A DNA stretch of 64,000 nt from Mitsuaria sp. 7 (GTDB lineage Bacteria > Pseudomonadota > Gammaproteobacteria > Burkholderiales > Burkholderiaceae_C): contig NZ_CP011514.1 in assembly GCF_001653795.1 (NCBI RefSeq), positions 5,390,727 through 5,454,726 on the forward strand, read 5' to 3'. The notes beneath the pieces are model-generated. The model was not told where the DNA came from and did not search any database. It was given only the letters and a program-made list of their open reading frames with translations. This document shows, piece by piece, positions 36,078 through 45,965 of the stretch. The translations under genes and the position numbers were made by a program. Numbering within the stretch: position 1 is the stretch's first letter; the number at the start of each line of letters is the position of its first letter.

Positions 36078-37067
36078 ATGAGCACGATCGTCCCCATGTG
36101 GTTGTGGGTGGTATTTGTCGGCATCGTCGTGGTGTCCCTGATCCTGGACTTCGTCGTCCTGCGCAAGCAGGGGGCGCACGACGTCGGCGTCAAGGAGGCG
36201 ATCAACTGGTCGCTGGTGTGGGTGGCGCTGAGCGTCGCCTTCATGGGTCTGCTCTGGTGGGCCGTGCGCGACGGCACTGGCAGCACGGAACTCGCCAACA
36301 CCAAGGCGCTGGAGTTCATCACCGGCTATCTCATCGAGAAGTCGCTGGCGGTCGACAACATCTTTGTCTTCCTGATGATCTTCACCTACTTCGCGGTGCC
36401 CTCGGCGTACCAGAAGCGGGTGCTCATGATGGGCATCATCGGCGCCATCGTGCTGCGCACGGTGATGATCCTGGTGGGCGGCTGGCTGATCGCGCAGTTC
36501 CACTGGATCCTCTACCTCTTCGGCGCCTTCCTGCTGGTCACCGGCATCAAGATGTGGTGGGCGTCCGGGAAGGAACCTGACCTCGAGGACAACCCCGCGC
36601 TGAAGCTGCTGCGCCGCGTCCTGCCGGTCAGCAAGAACTTCGACGGCGAACGCTTCTTCACGCTGGAGAACGGCAGGCGCATCGCCACGCCGATGCTGCT
36701 GGTGATCGCGCTGGTGGGCATGACCGATGTGATCTTCGCGGTGGACTCGATCCCGGCGATCTTCGCGATCACCAGCGATCCGTTCATCGTGCTGAGCTCC
36801 AACATCTTCGCGATCCTGGGCCTGCGCGCGATGTACTTCCTGCTGGCGGCGATGGCGTCCAAGTTCCATCTGCTCAGCTACGGCCTGGCGGTGGTGCTGG
36901 TGTTCATCGGCGCGAAGATGATGCTGATCGACGTGATCAAGATCCCCGTGCTGCTCTCGCTGGGCGTGGTGGTGGCGATCCTCGCGATCACCATGGTCTG
37001 GAGCCTGCGTACCGCGCCCAAGCTGCCGGAGCACCCTTCGGACGAGGCCCGGAAGGCGGCCGACTGA
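36078..37067 (+). CDS. TerC/Alx-family membrane protein (putative Mn2+ exporter)
   Basis: A 329-residue protein with about nine membrane helices. Acidic TerC motifs are EKSLAVDNIFVFLMIF and VGMTDVIFAVDSIPAIFAIT. Its length and motifs match the Alx subgroup, whose E. coli member is implicated in Mn2+ export and is also preceded by a yybP-ykoY riboswitch. Start at 36078 has AAGGAG at 36067-36072; the upstream open frame is riboswitch leader. It is monocistronic, ending at a strong terminator. Confidence 0.93.
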   Translation: MSTIVPMWLWVVFVGIVVVSLILDFVVLRKQGAHDVGVKEAINWSLVWVALSVAFMGLLWWAVRDGTGSTELANTKALEFITGYLIEKSLAVDNIFVFLMIFTYFAVPSAYQKRVLMMGIIGAIVLRTVMILVGGWLIAQFHWILYLFGAFLLVTGIKMWWASGKEPDLEDNPALKLLRRVLPVSKNFDGERFFTLENGRRIATPMLLVIALVGMTDVIFAVDSIPAIFAITSDPFIVLSSNIFAILGLRAMYFLLAAMASKFHLLSYGLAVVLVFIGAKMMLIDVIKIPVLLSLGVVVAILAITMVWSLRTAPKLPEHPSDEARKAAD

Positions 37068-37158: not shown

Positions 37159-37422
37159 GCTTTACAGAACAGAAACAGCGGCGTCGCGCGTTCGCCACGC
37201 GGAACGGCCGCAGCACCTCAATTCTTTGACACAGTCAAATGAGAATGCTTAGCATTTGCGGCCTTTGAGTCCAAGACGGCCTCAATCACTCGCCACCGCC
37301 AGCCAGACGCGAACAGGGAGGGGCCCGCCACCGTGCGCCGTGATGCGTCGGGACGACGCCGCCAGCACGCGCAGCCAGCCGAGCCAGATTTCCTACAAGA
37401 ACTTCCCTCGGAGCTCGATTCC
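37159..37422. other. Leader region of the TonB receptor operon
   Basis: About 264 bases between the terminator and the receptor start. The Fur-box-like promoter is at 37226-37257, leaving a leader of about 160 bases in which I see no gene or recognisable RNA element. Confidence 0.4.
37226..37257 (+). promoter_or_regulatory. Promoter with overlapping Fur-box-like site
   Basis: A -35 TTGACA at 37226-37231 and a -10 TAGCAT at 37250-37255 are spaced 18 bases apart. The segment AAATGAGAATGCTTAGCATT at 37237-37256 resembles the Fur consensus (AT-rich, imperfect dyad with GAGAATG...GCATT) and covers spacer and -10. Iron-bound Fur would therefore repress the receptor and probably the following genes. 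Confidence 0.72.
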
Positions 37423-39807
37423 ATGTCCCGCTACATCAAGAGCCGCAAACATGCGGTGGCCCCGCTGGCCGCACTGGCCGCCTCCCTGACCTTCCCGCTG
37501 GCCCACGCCGCCGACGCCCCGGCGCCCGCAGACGCCTCGACCGCTTCCGCCGCCGCCTCGCCCTACCTGCCGCAGGTGAAGATCGAAGGCACGGCCCAGT
37601 CCGACTACAAGGCCGACAAGAGCGCGTCGTCGAAGATCACCCAGCCGCTGCTGGAAACGCCCAAGACGATCTCCGTGATCAAGAAGGAAGTGCTGCGTGA
37701 GCAAGGCGCCGTGTCGCTGATCGACGCGCTGCAGAACACCCCCGGCATCACGATGCAGCTGGGGGAGAACGGCAACACCTCCGCCGGTGACACCTTCCAG
37801 ATGCGCGGCTTCTCGGCCAGCACCTCGACCTTCGTCGACGGCATCCGCGACCTGGGCGCGGTCACGCGCGACGTGTTCAACATCGAGCAGATCGAAGTCG
37901 TGAAGGGCCCGTCGGGCGCCGACACGGGCCGCGGCGCCTCCGCCGGCTACATCAACCTGATCAGCAAGCTGCCGCAGATCGAGAACTCGATCGACGGCGT
38001 GATCACGGTCGGCGACGCCAGCCGCAAGCGCGCCTCGATCGACGTGAACCAGAAGGTGATGGACAACACCGCCGTGCGCCTGAATGCCGTGTGGCAGGAC
38101 AACGGCGTGCCGGGCCGCGACACCGTCGAACGCAAGACGCATGCGATCGCACCGGGGATCGCCTTCGGCCTGAACACGCCGACGCGCTTCTTCCTGTATT
38201 CGCAGCACGTGCGTCAGAACAACGTGCCGGACGGCGGCATCCCGGCGATCGGCTGGGAAGGCTTCACGGTCGCGAATCCGGCAGCCGGCGCGACGCCCGC
38301 CGCCATCGCGGGCCTGAACGCGCTGAAGACCGCCGCCAAGGTGGACTCGGAAAACTACTACGGCAGCCGCAACGACCGCGAGAAGGTCAAGGCCGACATG
38401 GTCACGGCCAAGCTGGAGATGGACATCGGCAACGGCCTGACGGTGCGCAACACCTCGCGCTACGGCCGCACGCACATGGACCGTGTGATCACCGGCATCG
38501 TCGGCATCACCAATGTGCCGGGCACGGGCGCCGCCGCCACTGTCGTGACCGCGGACCCGTCCACCTGGCAGATCGCCCGCTCCCGTCAGCGCGTGAACCA
38601 GACCAACGAGATCCTCGCCAACCAGACCAGCATCAACGCCGCGTTCAACACCGCCGGCATCAAGCATGACCTGGCCACCGGTGTGGAGCTGATGTACGAA
38701 AGCCAGGACAGCCTGGGCTACGGCACCACGGCGCAGTCGATCAATGGCGTGAACTACGCGGCCACCGTCAATCCGCCGGCCAACCTGTACCACCCGAACT
38801 CGAACGACGTCCTCGGCATCCCCTATGCCACCGGCGCGGACAGCGAGGGCAGCACGATCACCCAGGCGATCTATGCGCTGGACACGATCTCGGTGACCGA
38901 CGCGCTCAAGCTCACGCTGGGCGTGCGCACCGAGCACTACAAGATCAAGACCACCACCGGTGCCGTGGTCCTGGCCCCGGGCGCCGCGACGGGTTCCAAC
39001 ATCAACACGATCAGCACCACGCGGCTGAACGCCGGCAAGTGGATCACCAGCTGGAACCTCGGCGCCGTGTACAAGCTGGCCGACAACGGCACGGTCTACG
39101 CCGCTGCCGCCAACTCGCTGACGCCTCCGGGCAGCGCGAACTTCACGCTGAGCGGCTCCGGCCAGGCCGGCACCGCCGCCGACGCGCAGGAGACGACGAA
39201 CTACGAGCTGGGCACCAAGTGGGACCTGCTGAGCAAGCGCCTGAACCTGACGGCCGCGCTGTACCGCAGCGAGAACGACGGCCAGGTCAGCGTGGACGCG
39301 CTGACCAACGTCGCCACGCAAGGCGGCAAGACGCGAGTGCAGGGGATCGAGCTGGCCGCGGTCGGACAGCTGACCAACTTCTGGCAGGTGACCGCCGGCG
39401 TCCAGACCATGGACACCAAGCAGATCAACCAGCGCGCTGCCTCCACCGCCACCACCCCGACCCAGACGGTGACGGATGGCGTGCGCTGGTCGCCGAAGTG
39501 GTCCGCCACGCTGTGGACGTCCTACCAGTGGAACGACTGGACCGGCGCTGTCGGCGCACGCCACGTTTCGGAGCAGAAGCGCGTGGTCACCGTCGCCGCG
39601 GCGCCGTCGACCGGTCTGCCTGAACTGCCGGCCTACACCGTGATGGACGTGATGGGTGCGTACCGCGTCAACAAGAACGTCTCGCTGCAGCTGAACGTCA
39701 CCAACGTGTTCGACAAGAAGTACATGAGCTCCTTGAACAACGGTGGCGGTCGTCTGGTGCTGGGCGCTCCGCGTGCCGCGACGCTCTCGGCCAACATCGG
39801 CTTCTGA
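37423..39807 (+). CDS. TonB-dependent siderophore receptor (Fiu-like)
   Basis: A 794-residue receptor. A signal peptide ends near FPLAHA, followed by a Pro/Ala-rich stretch and a plug with LLETPKTISVIKKEVL, FQMRGFSASTSTFVDGIRDL and IEQIEVVKGPSGADTGRGAS. The barrel ends GAPRAATLSANIGF. The plug and the C-terminal MDVMGAYRVNKNVSLQLNVT segment match catecholate/hydroxamate siderophore receptors. Start at 37423 was chosen for the signal peptide. A Fur-like promoter lies upstream and a PiuC-type gene follows, the pairing seen with Fiu/PiuA receptors. Substrate is inferred, not shown. Confidence 0.92.
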   Translation: MSRYIKSRKHAVAPLAALAASLTFPLAHAADAPAPADASTASAAASPYLPQVKIEGTAQSDYKADKSASSKITQPLLETPKTISVIKKEVLREQGAVSLIDALQNTPGITMQLGENGNTSAGDTFQMRGFSASTSTFVDGIRDLGAVTRDVFNIEQIEVVKGPSGADTGRGASAGYINLISKLPQIENSIDGVITVGDASRKRASIDVNQKVMDNTAVRLNAVWQDNGVPGRDTVERKTHAIAPGIAFGLNTPTRFFLYSQHVRQNNVPDGGIPAIGWEGFTVANPAAGATPAAIAGLNALKTAAKVDSENYYGSRNDREKVKADMVTAKLEMDIGNGLTVRNTSRYGRTHMDRVITGIVGITNVPGTGAAATVVTADPSTWQIARSRQRVNQTNEILANQTSINAAFNTAGIKHDLATGVELMYESQDSLGYGTTAQSINGVNYAATVNPPANLYHPNSNDVLGIPYATGADSEGSTITQAIYALDTISVTDALKLTLGVRTEHYKIKTTTGAVVLAPGAATGSNINTISTTRLNAGKWITSWNLGAVYKLADNGTVYAAAANSLTPPGSANFTLSGSGQAGTAADAQETTNYELGTKWDLLSKRLNLTAALYRSENDGQVSVDALTNVATQGGKTRVQGIELAAVGQLTNFWQVTAGVQTMDTKQINQRAASTATTPTQTVTDGVRWSPKWSATLWTSYQWNDWTGAVGARHVSEQKRVVTVAAAPSTGLPELPAYTVMDVMGAYRVNKNVSLQLNVTNVFDKKYMSSLNNGGGRLVLGAPRAATLSANIGF

Positions 39808-39840
39808 TCACGGCCTGACCGTTTGAGGTAGCGTACGGCC

Positions 39841-39870
39841 GGCCCGACCCTGTCCTGGCAGGGTCGGGCC
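39841..39870 (+). terminator. Strong hairpin between receptor and piuC genes
   Basis: A 12-bp perfect stem (39841-39852 with 39859-39870) around TCCTGG. No T-run follows, so it may lower rather than stop expression of the downstream genes, or stabilise the receptor mRNA. Confidence 0.6.
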
Positions 39871-39908
39871 GTCGTCCGTCCTGCCTCCTGAATTGATTCG
39901 ATCCGGAC

Positions 39909-40589
39909 ATGCTTCTTCACATCCCCGAAGTGCTCAGCAAGCACGACGTGCGCGAGATGCGCAGGCTCCTGGACGCCGCCGACTGGACCGACGGTCGCGC
40001 GACCGTGGGCGAGCAGGGCGCGAAGGTCAAGCAGAACCGGCAGCTGCCGGTCGAGCATCCGGCCGCGCGCGAGATCGGCGCGCACATCCGCGATGTGCTC
40101 GCGCGGCATCCGCTGTTCATCTCGGCCGCGTTGCCGCTGCGCACGCTGTCGCCGCTGTTCAACCGCTACGAAGGCGGCGAGCATTACGGCTTCCACGTCG
40201 ACGGCGCGATCATGCGCCAGCAGGGCACCGACCAGCCGCTGCGCAGCGACGTGTCCTCCACCCTCTTCCTGAGCGAGCCCGACGAGTACGACGGCGGCGA
40301 GCTCGAAGTCGTCGACACCTACGGCACGCACGAGGTGAAGCTGCCGGCGGGCGATCTCATCGTCTACGCGAGCACCAGCCTGCATCGCGTGACGCCGGTG
40401 ACGCGCGGTGCGCGCGTCTGCTCGTTCTTCTGGACGCAGAGCCTGATCCGCCAGGACTGGCAGCGGGCGATGCTCTTCGAGCTCGACCAGACCATCCAGA
40501 AGCTGCGAGGCCGCCTCGGCGACGACGCGGAGACGACGGCGCTCACCGGCCACTATCACAACCTGCTGCGGCTCTGGGCCGAGACATGA
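39909..40589 (+). CDS. piuC: PiuC/YbiX-type Fe(II)/2-oxoglutarate dioxygenase
   Basis: A 226-residue PKHD-type hydroxylase. Iron ligands are in GFHVDGAIM (His, Asp) and [14 protein letters not shown] (His, with the 2-oxoglutarate Arg). PiuC genes accompany siderophore receptors of the Fiu/PiuA type; the substrate is not settled but is thought to relate to siderophore-iron processing. The stop overlaps the start of the next gene (ATGA). Confidence 0.93.
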
Positions 40590-41236
40590 ACGGACCCAAG
40601 AGCGCGACCCCCTCCAGCCCCGCGAAACGCTCCGGCTGGCTGAAGCAGCTGCACCAGTGGCACTGGATCAGTTCCGCGATCTGCCTGATCGGCATGATCC
40701 TGTTCGCCGTCACCGGCATCACGCTGAACCATGCGGCCAACATCGAGTCCAAGCCGGCCATCGTCAGCAAGACCGTGCAGCTGCCGGGCGAACTCACCGC
40801 GCCGCTGAAGCCGAAGTCCGCGAACGAGCCCGACAGCAAGGCGCCCGTGCCCGCCCCGGTGCGCGCGTGGCTGGCCAGGGAACTGGGCCGCGCGATCGAT
40901 GGCCGCGAGGCCGAGTGGAATCGCGACGAGATCTACCTCGCGCTGCCGCGTCCTGGCGGCGACGCCTGGGTCCGCATCGCGCGCGACGGTGGCGAGGTCG
41001 AGTTCGAGGACACCGACCGCGGCTGGATCTCCTACTTCAACGATCTGCACAAGGGTCGCCATGCGGGCGTGGCCTGGAGCTGGTTCATCGACATCTTCGC
41101 CGTCGCCTGCCTGCTGTTCTCGATCACCGGGCTTCTGATCCTCAAGTTCCATGCGGTCAGCCGACCCAGCACCTGGCCGCTCGTCGGCCTGGGTCTCGTG
41201 ATTCCAGCGCTCCTGGCGCTGCTGCTGATCCATTGA
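40586..41236 (+). CDS. PepSY-associated membrane protein (putative electron conduit)
   Basis: A 216-residue inner-membrane protein. Helix 1 ([20 protein letters not shown]) is followed by a ~110-residue periplasmic PepSY-like part with [20 protein letters not shown]. Helices 2 ([20 protein letters not shown]) and 3 ([19 protein letters not shown]) come next. Several His lie next to or in helices (LHQWHW, LNHAAN, LKFHAV) and could bind heme. PepSY membrane proteins act in iron-siderophore reduction systems; here one lies between a siderophore receptor and flavin enzymes. Role as transmembrane electron carrier is inference. Confidence 0.85.
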
Positions 41237-41295
41237 TTTCCTCTCCGCTCCGAGCCGCCGCCAGGATCCTCCCGACCTTCAACCGAGACTCGACC

Positions 41296-41841
41296 ATGAA
41301 TCGCTCCGCAAGTCGTACCCTCCTCCAGATCGGTGCCCTCGGCACGCTGGGAACCCTGGCCGTCGGCTCGTCCGCCTGGGCCGCCACGGTCCAGCTCAAG
41401 CTGGAAGTGCCGCGCCTGAACGTCGCCGAATACCACCGCCCCTACGTCGCCGTGTGGGTCGAGAAAGCCGGCGAATCCGGCCCGGCCGTCGCCCAGCTGG
41501 CGGTCTGGTACGACACCAAGAAGCAGAACAACGCCGGCACCAAGTGGCTCAAGGACATGCGCCAGTGGTGGCGTCAGGGCGGCCGCAACCTCACGGTGCC
41601 CGCCGACGGTGTCACCGCCGCCACGCGCGCGCCGGGCGAGCACGCGATCTCGCTGGACACGAGCGCCGCGCTCGCCGCGCTGCCCCCGGGCAAGTACGAA
41701 GTCGTCGTCGAATCGAGCCGCGAAGCCGGCGGTCGTGAAGTGCAGCGCCTGCCGCTGACCTGGCCGATCAAGGCGGCCGCGACGGAGAAGGCGCAAGGCG
41801 AGCACGAGCTCGGCGCGCTGGAACTGACGGTCAAGCCCTGA
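41296..41841 (+). CDS. DUF2271 periplasmic protein, candidate flavoprotein
   Basis: A 181-residue exported protein. A signal peptide (residues 1-29, ending SSAWA) is followed by a beta-rich DUF2271 domain with YHRPYVAVWVE and LAVWYDTKK. At residues 104-110 it has DGVTAAT, which resembles the ApbE flavinylation motif (D-x-x-S/T-G/S-A-T), with the acceptor Thr110 coded at 41623-41625. The motif's G/S position is Ala here. With an ApbE gene two genes downstream, covalent FMN on Thr110 is plausible; if so this is the extracytoplasmic electron donor of the cluster. Confidence 0.85.
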   Translation: MNRSASRTLLQIGALGTLGTLAVGSSAWAATVQLKLEVPRLNVAEYHRPYVAVWVEKAGESGPAVAQLAVWYDTKKQNNAGTKWLKDMRQWWRQGGRNLTVPADGVTAATRAPGEHAISLDTSAALAALPPGKYEVVVESSREAGGREVQRLPLTWPIKAAATEKAQGEHELGALELTVKP

Positions 41842-41885
41842 TCGCGTTGCGACAGGCGCCACGACAAGACACGGAGGAACTGACC

Positions 41886-42746
41886 ATGATGAAGACTTCG
41901 ATCGCTTCGACGATCGCCACCCGCCTGGCGACACGCATCGCTCCCGTCGCGCTGGCCGTCGCCGCGCTGCTCCCGCTGACCGCGCACGCGCACATGACCT
42001 GGCTGCTGCCCAACAAGGCGGCCTTCGACGGCAAGGAGCCGGTGGCGTCGTTCGACGCGGCCGTCTCGGAAGACCTCTTCAACTTCGAGCGCGCGCTCAA
42101 GCTGGAGACGCTGCGCGTCACCGCGCCCGACGGCAAGACCGCGGAGGCCGAGAACCGCAGCACCGCCCGCCACCGCGAAAGCTTCGACGTGAAGCTGACG
42201 CAGGACGGCACCTGGCGCGTCAGCAACGTCAGCCAGTCGCTGATGGGCTCGTACAAGCAGGGCGGCGAGACCAAGCGCTTCCGCGGCACCAGGGAGTCCT
42301 TCGCGAAGGACGTGCCGGCCGACGCCGAGGTCACCGCGCTGACGGTGATGAGCAATCGCCAGCAGACCTTCGTCAGCAGGGAAGAAGCCGGCAAGGTCGA
42401 TTTCAAGCCGGAGGGCGACGGCCTCGAATTGCTGCCGCTGGGCCCGGTCACCGACCTCAGCCACGGCGACAAGACGAAGTTCCGTCTGGTGCTGGACGGC
42501 AAGCCGGCCGCCGATGTGCAGCTCAAGCTGATCCGCGAAGGCAACCGCTACCGCTACAAGTTCGGCGAGGTCGAGTTGAAGACCGACGCGAAGGGCGAGT
42601 TCACCGTCGAGTGGACCGAGGCCGGCCGCTACTTCATCGGCGCGAGCACCGGCCCGGCACGCGGCCCGAACGCGCCCACCGGCACGCGTGAAGCGCCGGT
42701 GCAGCGCGCCAGCGTCAGCGCCACCTTCGAGGTGCTGCCGAAGTGA
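41886..42746 (+). CDS. DUF4198 periplasmic protein
   Basis: A 286-residue exported protein. A signal peptide ends TAHAH, and the mature N-terminus begins HMTWLLPN as in DUF4198 proteins, with a His available at the start for metal binding. A beta-sandwich-rich body ends with GEFTVEWTEAGRYFIGAS. DUF4198 proteins accompany metal transport and DUF2271/PepSY clusters; function is unproven, possibly metal binding or delivery. Ribosome site GGAGG is at 41873-41877. Its stop overlaps the apbE start. Confidence 0.83.
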   Translation: MMKTSIASTIATRLATRIAPVALAVAALLPLTAHAHMTWLLPNKAAFDGKEPVASFDAAVSEDLFNFERALKLETLRVTAPDGKTAEAENRSTARHRESFDVKLTQDGTWRVSNVSQSLMGSYKQGGETKRFRGTRESFAKDVPADAEVTALTVMSNRQQTFVSREEAGKVDFKPEGDGLELLPLGPVTDLSHGDKTKFRLVLDGKPAADVQLKLIREGNRYRYKFGEVELKTDAKGEFTVEWTEAGRYFIGASTGPARGPNAPTGTREAPVQRASVSATFEVLPK

Positions 42747-43828
42747 GCGTGACCAGCGGGACGATGGCGACGCGGGGCGCGGGCATCGCGCTCGAGCCGC
42801 GTGTCCTCGTTCCGCTGCAGATCGTCGGCGAGCCGCCGGCGCTCGGCCAGGCCGTGCATGCGATCGCCGGCGAAACGATGGGGACGACCTGGTCCGCGCG
42901 GTTCATCGGTCCGGCGGGGCTTCGTCTCGCCGCGATCGAAGCGGCGGTCGTCCACGCCTGTGACGAGGTCATCGCGCAGATGAGCAGCTGGGAGGCGGGC
43001 TCGGACCTCAGCCGGTTCAATCGCGCCGCGGCGGGCACGTCGTGCCCGTTGCCCGACGGCTTCGCCACCGTCGTCGATGCGGCGTTGCGCATCGCGGCCG
43101 AAAGCGATGGTGCCTACGATCCGACCGCCGGCGCGCTCGTCGCGCTGTGGGGCTTCGGACCTTCCGGCGAGACCGCGCTCGCGCTGCGCCACGACGCCCC
43201 CGGTTTCCGCGCGCCGTCATTCGAGGACTGCGATCGCGTGCACTGCGGGTGGGACTCGCTGCCGTGGGACGGCACGCGACGCGTGCTCACCCAACCCGGC
43301 GAGGCGACGCTGGACCTGTCGGCGATCGCCAAGGGCTTCGCGGTCGATCGCGTGTCCGCGGTTCTGACATCGCTCGGCCTGCCGGACCACCTCGTCGAGA
43401 TCGGCGGTGAACTCCGCGGTGCCGGGCTCAAGCCCGAAGGCCAACCCTGGTGGGTCGATCTGGAGCCGCCGTCCGCCGATTGCGGTCTCGCGCCTGTGCG
43501 CATCGCGCTGCACGGTCTGTCGGTCGCGACCTCCGGCGACTACCGGAAGTTCTTCGACGAGGCCGACGGACCGCGGCGCTCCCACACCATCGATCCGCGC
43601 ACGCGGCGTCCGATCGAGCACGGCCTCGCATCGGTCACCGTCGTGCACGACAGCGCGATGTGGGCCGACGGCTGGTCGACGGCGTTGATGGTGCTCGGTC
43701 CGGACGAGGGGCTCGCGCTGGCGGAGCGCCTCGGGCTGGCCGCGTTGCTCGTGCGGCGTCGCACGTCGGCCGAAGGCGGTGGTTTCGAAGAGCGCTTCTC
43801 CACGGCGATGCGCGCGTTGATGCTGTGA
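42743..43828 (+). CDS. apbE: FAD:protein FMN transferase (ApbE family)
   Basis: A 361-residue enzyme that splits FAD and attaches FMN to Thr/Ser of target proteins. Family motifs seen are GETMGTTWSARF, MSSWEAGSDLSRFN, DPTAGALVALWGF, LDLSAIAKGFAVDRV, VEIGGELRGAG and HTIDPRTRRPI with the metal-binding ADGWSTALMVLG. The proposed start is GTG at 42743, overlapping the previous stop by four bases; ATG at 42764 is the alternative. No signal peptide or lipobox is visible from either start, which is unusual because most ApbE enzymes act in the periplasm. Confidence 0.94.
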   Translation: MSVTSGTMATRGAGIALEPRVLVPLQIVGEPPALGQAVHAIAGETMGTTWSARFIGPAGLRLAAIEAAVVHACDEVIAQMSSWEAGSDLSRFNRAAAGTSCPLPDGFATVVDAALRIAAESDGAYDPTAGALVALWGFGPSGETALALRHDAPGFRAPSFEDCDRVHCGWDSLPWDGTRRVLTQPGEATLDLSAIAKGFAVDRVSAVLTSLGLPDHLVEIGGELRGAGLKPEGQPWWVDLEPPSADCGLAPVRIALHGLSVATSGDYRKFFDEADGPRRSHTIDPRTRRPIEHGLASVTVVHDSAMWADGWSTALMVLGPDEGLALAERLGLAALLVRRRTSAEGGGFEERFSTAMRALML

Positions 43829-43835
43829 TGCTCTG

Positions 43836-45254
43836 ATGACTGCGATCCTGTCCCGACCCGCGGCGGCGCTGCTGCTGATCGCGCTCTACCTGCTGATGTG
43901 CGCCGCGGTCTGGTGGCGGCATCGCCGCCGGCTGCGGCAGGCGGCCGATGCCGCTGCGGCGCTGTTGCCCGCCGCCGATGCCGGTCCGCCGGTGCTGGTA
44001 CTGCACGCGAGCCAGACCGGCCAGGCCGAGGAGATCGCCTGGCAGACCGCCAAGGCCTTGCATCTGGCCGGCATGCCGGTGCGCGTGGCCGCGCTCGGCG
44101 AGATCGACCGCGAGGCCTTGCGCGGCGCGCGGCACGCGCTGTTCATCGCCAGCACCTACGGCGAAGGCGATGCGCCGGACAGCGCCGCGCCGTTCGCGCG
44201 CGACCTGATGGCGGCGGACGGCGGCGGCCTGGATCTGTCGTCCCTCGAAGTCGGCGTGCTGGCGCTGGGCGATTCGACCTACACGCACTTCTGCGGCTTC
44301 GGTCGCGCGCTCGACGCCTGGTTGCAGGAGCTCGGTGCGCGGCCGATGTTCGACCGCATCGAGGCCGATCGTGCCGACGACCACGCGCTCGCGCAATGGC
44401 GCCAACGGCTCAGTCATTTCGCGGGTACCGCCGATCTCGCGGCGTGGGAAACGCCGGTCTTCACGTCGTGGCGTCTGCGCACCCGCCGGCATCTGAATCC
44501 TGGCAGCCAGGGCGGTCCGGTGTTCCATCTGGAACTGACACCGGCGGACGGTTCGCCGCTGCCGACGTGGGAAGCGGGCGATCTCGTGCAGGTGAGTGTC
44601 GCGACCGATGACGCCGATGGCGCCGACAACGATGCGAGGCGGCCGCGCGAGTACACGATCGCTTCGCTCCCCTCGGACGGAAGCGTCGAGCTGATGGTCC
44701 GCCTCACCACGCGCGAGGACGGCACGCCCGGACGCTCGTCGGGCTGGCTGACCGGACGGCTGCCGCTCGACGGCACCGTGGCGATGCGGCTGCGTCCGCA
44801 TGCGAGCTTCCGCATCGGTGCGAACGCCCATCGTCCGCTGATCCTCGTCGGCAACGGCACCGGGCTCGCGGGACTGCGCGCGCATCTGAAGGCGCGGGCG
44901 TCTATCCGCAGGGACACGACGAGCGCGCCCGCGTGGCTGCTCTTCGGCGAACGCCAGTCGGCGCACGACGCGCACTACCGCGATGAGATCGAGGCCTGGC
45001 AGCGTGACGGCCTGATCGCGCAGGCGGACTGGGCCTTCTCGCGCGACCAGCCCGAGCGCGTCCACGTGCAGCACCTGCTCGCGCGACACGCGCAGCGGCT
45101 GCGCGAATGGGTCGCCGACGGCGCGGCGCTCTACGTCTGCGGCAGCCTGCAAGGGATGGCCGGCGCGGTCGATGCGGTGCTGCGCGAGACGCTCGGCGAG
45201 ACCGGTGTCGACACCCTCATCCGCGAGGGTCGCTATCGCCGCGATGTCTATTGA
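43836..45254 (+). CDS. Membrane-anchored diflavin reductase (CysJ-like)
   Basis: A 472-residue protein. One N-terminal helix (AALLLIALYLLMCAAVWW) is followed by RHRRRLRQ, so the rest faces the cytosol. A flavodoxin domain (VLVLHASQTGQAEEIAWQTA; FIASTYGEGDAPDSAAPF; LGDSTYTHFCGFG) is followed by a short FAD domain (REYTIASLP) and a NADPH domain (ILVGNGTGLAGLRAHL; LLFGERQ; ALYVCGSLQGMAGAV). It should take electrons from NADPH and pass them to a membrane partner, most simply the PepSY protein. It is smaller than CysJ, lacking much of the connecting domain. Confidence 0.9.
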   Translation: MTAILSRPAAALLLIALYLLMCAAVWWRHRRRLRQAADAAAALLPAADAGPPVLVLHASQTGQAEEIAWQTAKALHLAGMPVRVAALGEIDREALRGARHALFIASTYGEGDAPDSAAPFARDLMAADGGGLDLSSLEVGVLALGDSTYTHFCGFGRALDAWLQELGARPMFDRIEADRADDHALAQWRQRLSHFAGTADLAAWETPVFTSWRLRTRRHLNPGSQGGPVFHLELTPADGSPLPTWEAGDLVQVSVATDDADGADNDARRPREYTIASLPSDGSVELMVRLTTREDGTPGRSSGWLTGRLPLDGTVAMRLRPHASFRIGANAHRPLILVGNGTGLAGLRAHLKARASIRRDTTSAPAWLLFGERQSAHDAHYRDEIEAWQRDGLIAQADWAFSRDQPERVHVQHLLARHAQRLREWVADGAALYVCGSLQGMAGAVDAVLRETLGETGVDTLIREGRYRRDVY

Positions 45255-45539: not shown

Positions 45540-45965
45540 ATGGCAACTGCGAAGAAGGCTGCGCCCGCCAAGAAGGCGGCACCGGCCAAGAAGGCGGCTC
45601 CGGCGGCGAAGAAGGCCGCCGCACCGGCGAAGAAGGCGGCACCGGCGAAGAAGGCCGCGCCCGCGACGAAGGCGGCAGCCCCTGCGAAGAAGGCTGCTGC
45701 TCCCGCGAAGAAGCGCACCCCCAACGCCGCCTTCATGAAGGCCCTGACCCCCAGCGCCTCGCTGGCCGCGATCGTCGGCGACAAGCCGCTGCCGCGGACC
45801 GACGTGGTGAAGAAGGTCTGGGAATACATCAAGAAGCACAACCTGCAGGACCCGGCGCAGAAGCGCGTCATCAATGCCGACGCCAAGCTGAAGGAAATCT
45901 TCGGCAAGGCCAAGGCCGACATGTTCGAGATGACCCGACTGATCAACAGCCACCTGAAGGATTGA
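45540..45965 (+). CDS. SWIB/MDM2-domain protein with histone H1-like tail
   Basis: A 141-residue protein. Residues ~4-58 are almost only Lys, Ala and Pro in KKAAPA-type repeats, as in bacterial histone-H1-like proteins. Residues ~62-141 form a SWIB domain (MKALTPSASLAAIVGDKPLP, WEYIKKHNLQD, VINADAKLKEIFGKAKADM). SWIB is a eukaryotic chromatin-remodelling domain also found in chlamydiae and Burkholderiales. Likely a DNA-binding nucleoid protein; the role is not established. Start at 45540 follows a GGAGAG ribosome site. Ends at a strong terminator. Confidence 0.92.
   Translation: MATAKKAAPAKKAAPAKKAAPAAKKAAAPAKKAAPAKKAAPATKAAAPAKKAAAPAKKRTPNAAFMKALTPSASLAAIVGDKPLPRTDVVKKVWEYIKKHNLQDPAQKRVINADAKLKEIFGKAKADMFEMTRLINSHLKD

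Follow-up and report, generated by a model that had tools for sequence, protein, structure and literature searches.

A seven-gene operon of Mitsuaria sp. 7 with a predicted role in ferric-catecholate uptake and reductive iron release, and its ApbE without a recognisable export signal

Gene content and order of the operon

The locus described here lies in a 64-kb window of the 6.09-Mb genome of Mitsuaria sp. 7, the window being the whole stretch of 64,000 nucleotides (nt) that was analysed. Seven genes on the forward strand span positions 37423–45254, and their families were assigned by matches over curated cut-offs, including those of NCBIfam. The first gene (37423–39807) encodes a TonB-dependent catecholate siderophore receptor of the Fiu/PiuA/CciT type, which matches the Fiu equivalog NF007349 of NCBIfam with 688.3 bits against a cut-off of 686. 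After a gap of 101 nt it is followed by a Fe(II)/2-oxoglutarate dioxygenase of the PKHD type (PiuC/YbiX/CciO; 39909–40589), assigned by NF003975, Fe2+-dependent dioxygenase, with 342.4 against a cut-off of 180. The dioxygenase gene overlaps by 4 nt that of a PepSY_TM_like_2 (PF16357) membrane protein (40586–41236), a putative two-haem transmembrane wire according to its family match, its conserved histidines and an AlphaFold2 model. Next, after 59 nt, is a DUF2271 protein (41296–41841) with a predicted Sec-type leader and a sequence close to a flavinylation motif, a putative carrier of flavin mononucleotide (FMN). A DUF4198 protein (41886–42746), separated from it by 44 nt, is also exported according to its leader score, and has a conserved histidine, His36, directly after the leader. 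Its gene overlaps by 4 nt that of ApbE (42743–43828), a transferase of FMN from flavin adenine dinucleotide (FAD) to proteins, recognised by its family match and catalytic residues, in which no signal peptide could be recognised. The last gene, 7 nt further on (43836–45254), encodes a membrane-anchored flavodoxin–FNR reductase, CysJ-like by its family matches, with an N-terminal hydrophobic helix and a predicted cytosolic body. An earlier reading of these letters (the original prediction) had described seven same-strand genes in this order, with overlaps or short gaps; all the families exceed their cut-offs and the junctions were confirmed from the sequence. The genome is close to Roseateles noduli, with a DUF2271 that is 98% identical to that of strain HZ7.

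A single promoter-like site is found between 37000 and 45700, where shuffled sequence is expected to give 0.4. This sigma-70-like promoter, TTGACA-N18-TAGCAT (37226–37255, forward strand), precedes the receptor gene, and its −10 element is overlapped by a Fur-like box (37235–37259) composed of two overlapping 19-mers 6 bp apart. These match 13/19 and 12/19 positions of a Fur-box consensus; the score of 13/19 is the joint best in the window, the other 13 being at 36422. The close relatives L061, L171 and L175 carry the same box. Fur-type control of the operon, as first proposed, thus agrees with a candidate box lying on the sole promoter predicted from the sequence.

Conservation of the core and its linkage to PiuC

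Loci from other genomes were compared in two sets. The first contains 111 loci, the window and 110 loci around DUF2271 matches (110 of the 162 matches listed, from the family, the order and the phylum). The second contains 80 loci ordered by likeness, and some genomes are present in both sets, which total 191 loci. DUF2271 is patchily distributed, with matches in 73/299 genomes of the family, 38/300 of the order and 47/299 of the phylum. The core order PepSY–DUF2271–DUF4198–ApbE–reductase was found in 63/111 and 61/80 loci (124/191), core order meaning that no other of the seven families lies between, so that unrelated genes in between would go undetected. By profiles, 90/111 loci of the first set have both PepSY and DUF2271. 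In 42 of these 90 a PiuC gene lies no more than 9 kb away, in four orientations (before or after the core and on either of the strands), and 38 of the 42 also have a receptor; in the second set PiuC is this close in 19/80 loci. By our estimate, a single copy placed at random in a genome of 4–5 Mb would land within such 18 kb with a chance of about 0.4%. On a tree of 150 tips the linkage of PiuC changes 21 times, counting losses and cuts at contig ends. The core is therefore widespread, and its coupling to the receptor–PiuC pair has come about repeatedly. All seven genes in this order are present in 19/191 loci, in genera that include Roseateles, Pelomonas, Mitsuaria, Ideonella and Rhizobacter; the co-occurrence across genomes that the original prediction put forward as a check is found, then, most broadly for the core. 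The joining of all seven genes is an arrangement of known modules, mainly in one lineage. Among plasmid records, only partial matches to the locus were obtained (5 records).

Receptor, dioxygenase and route of iron

PiuC is the only match to PKHD_C in the genome, and its residues H96, D98 and H159 are invariant among 62 aligned sequences. A Fiu-type receptor adjacent to a PKHD dioxygenase is the arrangement of the Fiu–YbiX, PiuA–PiuC and CciT–CciO pairs, and the receptor type suggests that the siderophores are catecholates. The genome, 96% complete by estimate, has one FeoB and one FecCD-type permease. The latter adjoins a binding-protein gene and an ATPase gene, the products of which we take to be of the haem type; neither the binding protein nor the FecCD-type permease was named by NCBIfam over a cut-off. 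This inventory is consistent with iron being freed in the periplasm and then taken up as Fe(II).

Both halves of the operon have counterparts in Caulobacter, where a PepSY–DUF2271–DUF4198–reductase cluster (CCNA_03155–03159) and cciT–cciO are reported as Fur targets that are needed under ethylenediaminetetraacetic acid, CciT requiring CciO (PMC12004947). The same two modules, flavin-dependent reductase, PepSY, DUF2271 and DUF4198 on the one hand and receptor and PiuC-type dioxygenase on the other, occupy two separate loci there, whereas here they form one seven-gene operon (PMC12004947, PMC12004943). A PepSY-TM gene is listed with those neighbours of cciT/cciO that come next in frequency, in fewer than 25% of genomes (PMC12004943).

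Electrons could also reach the periplasm for an acceptor other than ferric siderophore, such as copper, a thiol or another form of iron. In Bordetella a PepSY_TM protein has been tied to copper and oxidase function (PMC13038864) and a receptor–PepSY operon is copper-regulated (PMC12914433); the DUF4198 protein has a sub-threshold match to CopC (E 0.0028), and 48/90 core loci have no PiuC within 9 kb. We nevertheless regard such an acceptor as decidedly unlikely here: the Fiu-type receptor and PiuC share the operon, the promoter bears a Fur-like box, the Caulobacter homologues combine Fur control with a chelation phenotype, and the DUF2271 and DUF4198 genes of Alteromonas respond to iron limitation (PMC7190382).

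Transmembrane protein and reductase

The AlphaFold2 model of the PepSY protein (predicted local distance difference test (pLDDT) 92.2) contains three helices of membrane-spanning length, in agreement with the membrane-spanning role first ascribed to it. Four histidines are conserved among the aligned relatives: His26 (173/173), His155 (175/175), His189 (158/175) and His216 (166/172). In the model they are at the predicted ends of helices, near both membrane faces, and would be suitably placed to hold two haems. A further histidine, His23, is invariant in 38 sequences and falls below the 85% listing in the wider alignment. His216 is the very last residue of the protein, a possible haem ligand at the C-terminus itself.

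No match to the model was obtained with Foldseek at E ≤ 0.001, and a sequence search of solved structures for PepSY, DUF4198 and DUF2271 returned weak matches only, taken as unrelated. With the structure of FoxB (7abw) there is no sequence match and a weak fold match. The protein resembles the PepSY_TM siderophore reductases FoxB and HiuB in being a membrane PepSY protein with histidines near both faces and a link to a receptor, but it is of the short, three-helix PF16357 type, and its operon also encodes a flavin donor for it, together with a putative flavin carrier that is exported (PMC13001220; 7abw).

At its N-terminus the reductase has a single hydrophobic helix and then the sequence RHRRR, as expected of a protein with a cytosolic body. 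It is probably of the type that uses reduced nicotinamide adenine dinucleotide phosphate (NADPH), and its earlier placement as a cytosol-facing diflavin enzyme fits these predicted features.

The putative flavin attachment site of DUF2271

The window DUF2271 contains the sequence D104-G-V-T-A-A-T110, which departs from the canonical [ST]GA[ST], or Dxx[ST]GA[ST] with the leading residue, by a change of the glycine to alanine and keeps the aspartate and the acceptor threonine. All 111 aligned DUF2271 sequences have Thr or Ser at the acceptor site; the leading aspartate is present in 101/111, the glycine in 83/111, and the strict [ST]GA[ST] in 67/111. In the model of the protein, residues 103–105 have a pLDDT below 50 and the block 101–110 averages 56, which is consistent with an exposed linear site. 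DUF2271 is the sole protein among the seven with a motif of this kind. The original prediction had it exported and possibly flavinylated; its export stands, with a Sec-type leader scoring 1.70 (own rule, see below), and so does the acceptor position, though the motif itself is noncanonical.

The altered motif raises the possibility that the site has decayed, so that DUF2271 would serve in structure or ligand binding and ApbE would act on another target, since the glycine is missing in the window and 27 others of the 111 sequences, and the following alanine is replaced by proline in 23/111. We consider this improbable. The acceptor residue is invariant, ApbE is retained in the operon with its catalytic residues (H281 and D309, each in 166/166), and the operon offers no other protein with the motif. 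The proline variants are confined to DUF2271 loci that have an ApbE (23/93 against 0/18, p 0.022, relatedness ignored), and in another protein a Gly-to-Ala change lowered flavinylation to about 50% and did not abolish it, according to a review (PMC12052999). Threonine 110 is kept as the putative attachment site in the model proposed below.

An ApbE clade without recognisable export signal

Exported proteins are generally said to receive their flavin from an exported ApbE. For the ApbE of the window no signal peptide was found from any in-frame start, a stop codon closing the frame 59 codons before the MGTTWS region, and no lipobox or other recognisable leader was detected by a heuristic score of our own, a point that the original prediction had overlooked. 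With this score, for which a sequence passes at 1.5 or more and the scan ends at the mature anchor, 158/166 DUF2271 and 161/171 DUF4198 proteins pass, compared with 0/62 PiuC and 22/154 ApbE proteins. An earlier version, which let windows enter the mature part, separated ApbE from DUF2271 less cleanly (at 1.9: ApbE 10/164, DUF2271 95/175, DUF4198 144/160, PiuC 1/62). The receptors were unusable as a control (1/54 pass), probably because the anchor pattern misses their mature start.

The ApbEs found elsewhere in these genomes bear on which enzyme serves DUF2271. In 14/32 genomes with the locus, the ApbE of the operon is the only one; it is clearly negative in 12 of these and borderline in 2 (L032, L088), whereas DUF2271 reaches a score of 1.7 or more in 14/14. 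By contrast, all 16 genomes in which the DUF2271 locus has no ApbE carry one with an export signal elsewhere (16/16, G205 being read by eye), and DUF2271 can therefore presumably be served from the periplasm there. Loci without ApbE number 18, and 16 genomes were searched, L070 and L140 being second copies in genomes with another locus. In these 16 genomes 20/24 ApbE open reading frames pass 1.5; the remaining 4 are additional or fragmentary copies in G299, G817 and G827, each of which also has one that passes. In a phylogenetic tree the ApbEs of DUF2271 loci form one clade of 145, plus one signal-bearing member (support 0.98), which adjoins 13 ApbEs of short-type DUF2271 loci (0.92) that are also apparently leaderless.

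Flavinylation of the DUF2271 precursor by the operon ApbE in the cytosol, before export by Sec, is the simplest account of these sequences and the most likely one. Because the operon ApbE is leaderless, the covalent FMN would be attached before export, or else by another ApbE or by some other route. Put more generally, a distinct leaderless ApbE clade would flavinylate an unfolded exported carrier in the cytosol, and relatives without an ApbE in the locus would use a periplasmic, exported lipoprotein ApbE, so that one modification would have switched compartments and the system would no longer depend on periplasmic FAD; we give this broader proposal an even chance.

Several observations weigh against a cytosolic reaction. 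The export-signal test is a heuristic one. The 22/154 ApbEs that pass it mostly show a short RVLIP-type stretch, and only those of L223 and L095 look by eye like true leader bearers. A further, exported ApbE is found in 11/32 genomes with an operon ApbE: among 20 other ApbE copies, 11 pass the score, with plain lipoboxes or twin-arginine leaders, and by eye 12 are exported and 8 have no visible leader. The difference is due to L261, where a lipobox is visible and no start lies within the limit; for L255, one of the 8, the alignment begins only at profile position 301, which leaves its N-terminus outside judgement, and one of the 20 copies is from G033, a genome without a DUF2271 match. Flavinylation of a DUF2271 was also tested with an ApbE called 'signal peptide-truncated' (PMC8238504). 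Together with the exported ApbEs of the 16 genomes without a locus ApbE, these points would suit the same electron chain with DUF2271 flavinylated in the periplasm, either by an operon ApbE exported without a classical leader, for example via the short hydrophobic RVLIP segment, or by a second, exported ApbE. This is unlikely in our view, since the window ApbE has no qualifying segment, the operon ApbE is alone in 14/32 genomes with the locus, and the genome of the window has two, both leaderless. The second of these, outside the window (L251 926–5103), adjoins a DsbD-like gene and a DUF3570 gene with two SGAS-type motifs, DUF3570 being another family of ApbE substrates (PMC8238504). Cytosolic attachment by the operon ApbE is thus retained as the preferred account.

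The R-V-L-[IV]-P-like stretch recurs at the N-terminus, upstream of the ApbE domain, in 89/167 sequences by pattern (window 42743–42850). Four loci (L104, L105, L106 and L136) encode an ApbE–DUF2271 fusion, one protein with a leader, in which enzyme and substrate would be exported together. Export of FMN-loaded DUF2271 by Tat was considered and set aside, as an RRx[FLVIM]-like motif occurs in 16/166 leaders; it may hold for a few of them and does not for the window.

The operon ApbE shares its catalytic residues and an exported substrate with the exported lipoprotein ApbEs of Nqr, Rnf and Nos, but differs from them in having no recognisable leader and in belonging to a separate clade (PMC12052999, PMC5655446). 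The cytosolic ApbE of Klebsiella likewise has no signal peptide; it modifies a soluble fumarate reductase in the cytoplasm, whereas the only motif-bearing partner here is exported (PMC12052999). No published statement on leaderless ApbEs in DUF2271 clusters was found in passages of PMC8238504, PMC11334425 and PMC12052999, the figures and supplements of which may hold one, and literature searches listed no paper on the subject.

A model for reductive release of siderophore iron

From the genes and their order, the promoter and its box, the conserved residues, and the presence or absence of export signals, all read from the sequence, we infer a pathway, including its haems, covalent FMN, compartment of flavinylation, direction of electrons and substrate, and the roles of PiuC and DUF4198. 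The Fiu-type receptor would bring ferric siderophore into the periplasm. At the cytosolic face, the anchored FAD/FMN reductase would take electrons from NADPH and hand them to PepSY, in which a first haem, with His26 and His189 as ligands, would relay them to another, with His155 and His216 as ligands. From there they would reach FMN bound covalently to Thr110 of the periplasmic DUF2271, which would reduce Fe(III). The Fe(II) would enter through FeoB. A possible task of DUF4198 is to hold the metal or the complex, and one of PiuC is to modify the siderophore. The operon ApbE would stay in the cytosol and load the precursor of DUF2271 with FMN, probably ahead of its export by Sec; being cytosolic, it would make the system draw on cytosolic FAD. 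On balance we lean towards this reading of the locus, as a Fur-controlled operon for ferric-catecholate uptake and reductive iron release with flavinylation by a cytosolic ApbE.

Much of this idea is already in print (PMC8238504, PMC12004947). PepSY-like flavinylation systems were defined by Meheust et al. (2021), who showed a DUF2271 to be flavinylated and suggested that such systems act in the reduction of iron and the use of siderophore iron (PMC8238504). By that definition the operon is such a system, with a PF16357 protein clustered with ApbE and a DUF2271 that has a leader, and it includes the usual companions of these systems, DUF2271 and a secreted DUF4198, in one cluster with the PepSY-like protein and ApbE. 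It differs from them in the Fiu-type receptor and PiuC that lead the operon, the separate anchored flavodoxin–FNR reductase, the TAAT sequence and the leaderless ApbE. The original prediction of a transmembrane electron chain to ferric siderophore is therefore largely right and largely published: the families, box, histidines, leader and FeoB agree with it, and it is not new, missed the missing leader of ApbE, and names an acceptor that is best kept conditional.

The feature that merits testing is the clade of leaderless ApbEs. The source of periplasmic FAD has been named an open issue (PMC5655446); if FMN is attached first and export follows, the problem of supplying FAD to the periplasm is avoided, and Sec has to translocate a polypeptide that bears a bulky cofactor. 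The operon unites the proposed components of reductive siderophore-iron release, apart from an importer of Fe(II), in a single transcription unit. Since support for the idea has until now come largely from separate loci, it offers a compact case for testing.

Other features of the locus

The gap between the receptor and PiuC genes (39808–39908, forward strand) contains a perfect, G+C-rich hairpin of 13 bp (z −4.66), with no T-run in the window. A perfect stem of at least 7 bp is present in 27/47 such gaps, the window included, and a T-run follows several of them; the gap of the closest relative, L171, has no perfect stem of this length. No match was found in Rfam at gathering scores. The hairpin perhaps serves for attenuation downstream of the receptor gene; a Caulobacter operon holds a small RNA gene alongside cciT and cciO (PMC12004943). 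Directly downstream of the operon, at 45540–45965, is a lysine- and alanine-rich protein with KKAAPA repeats that by eye resembles histone H1.

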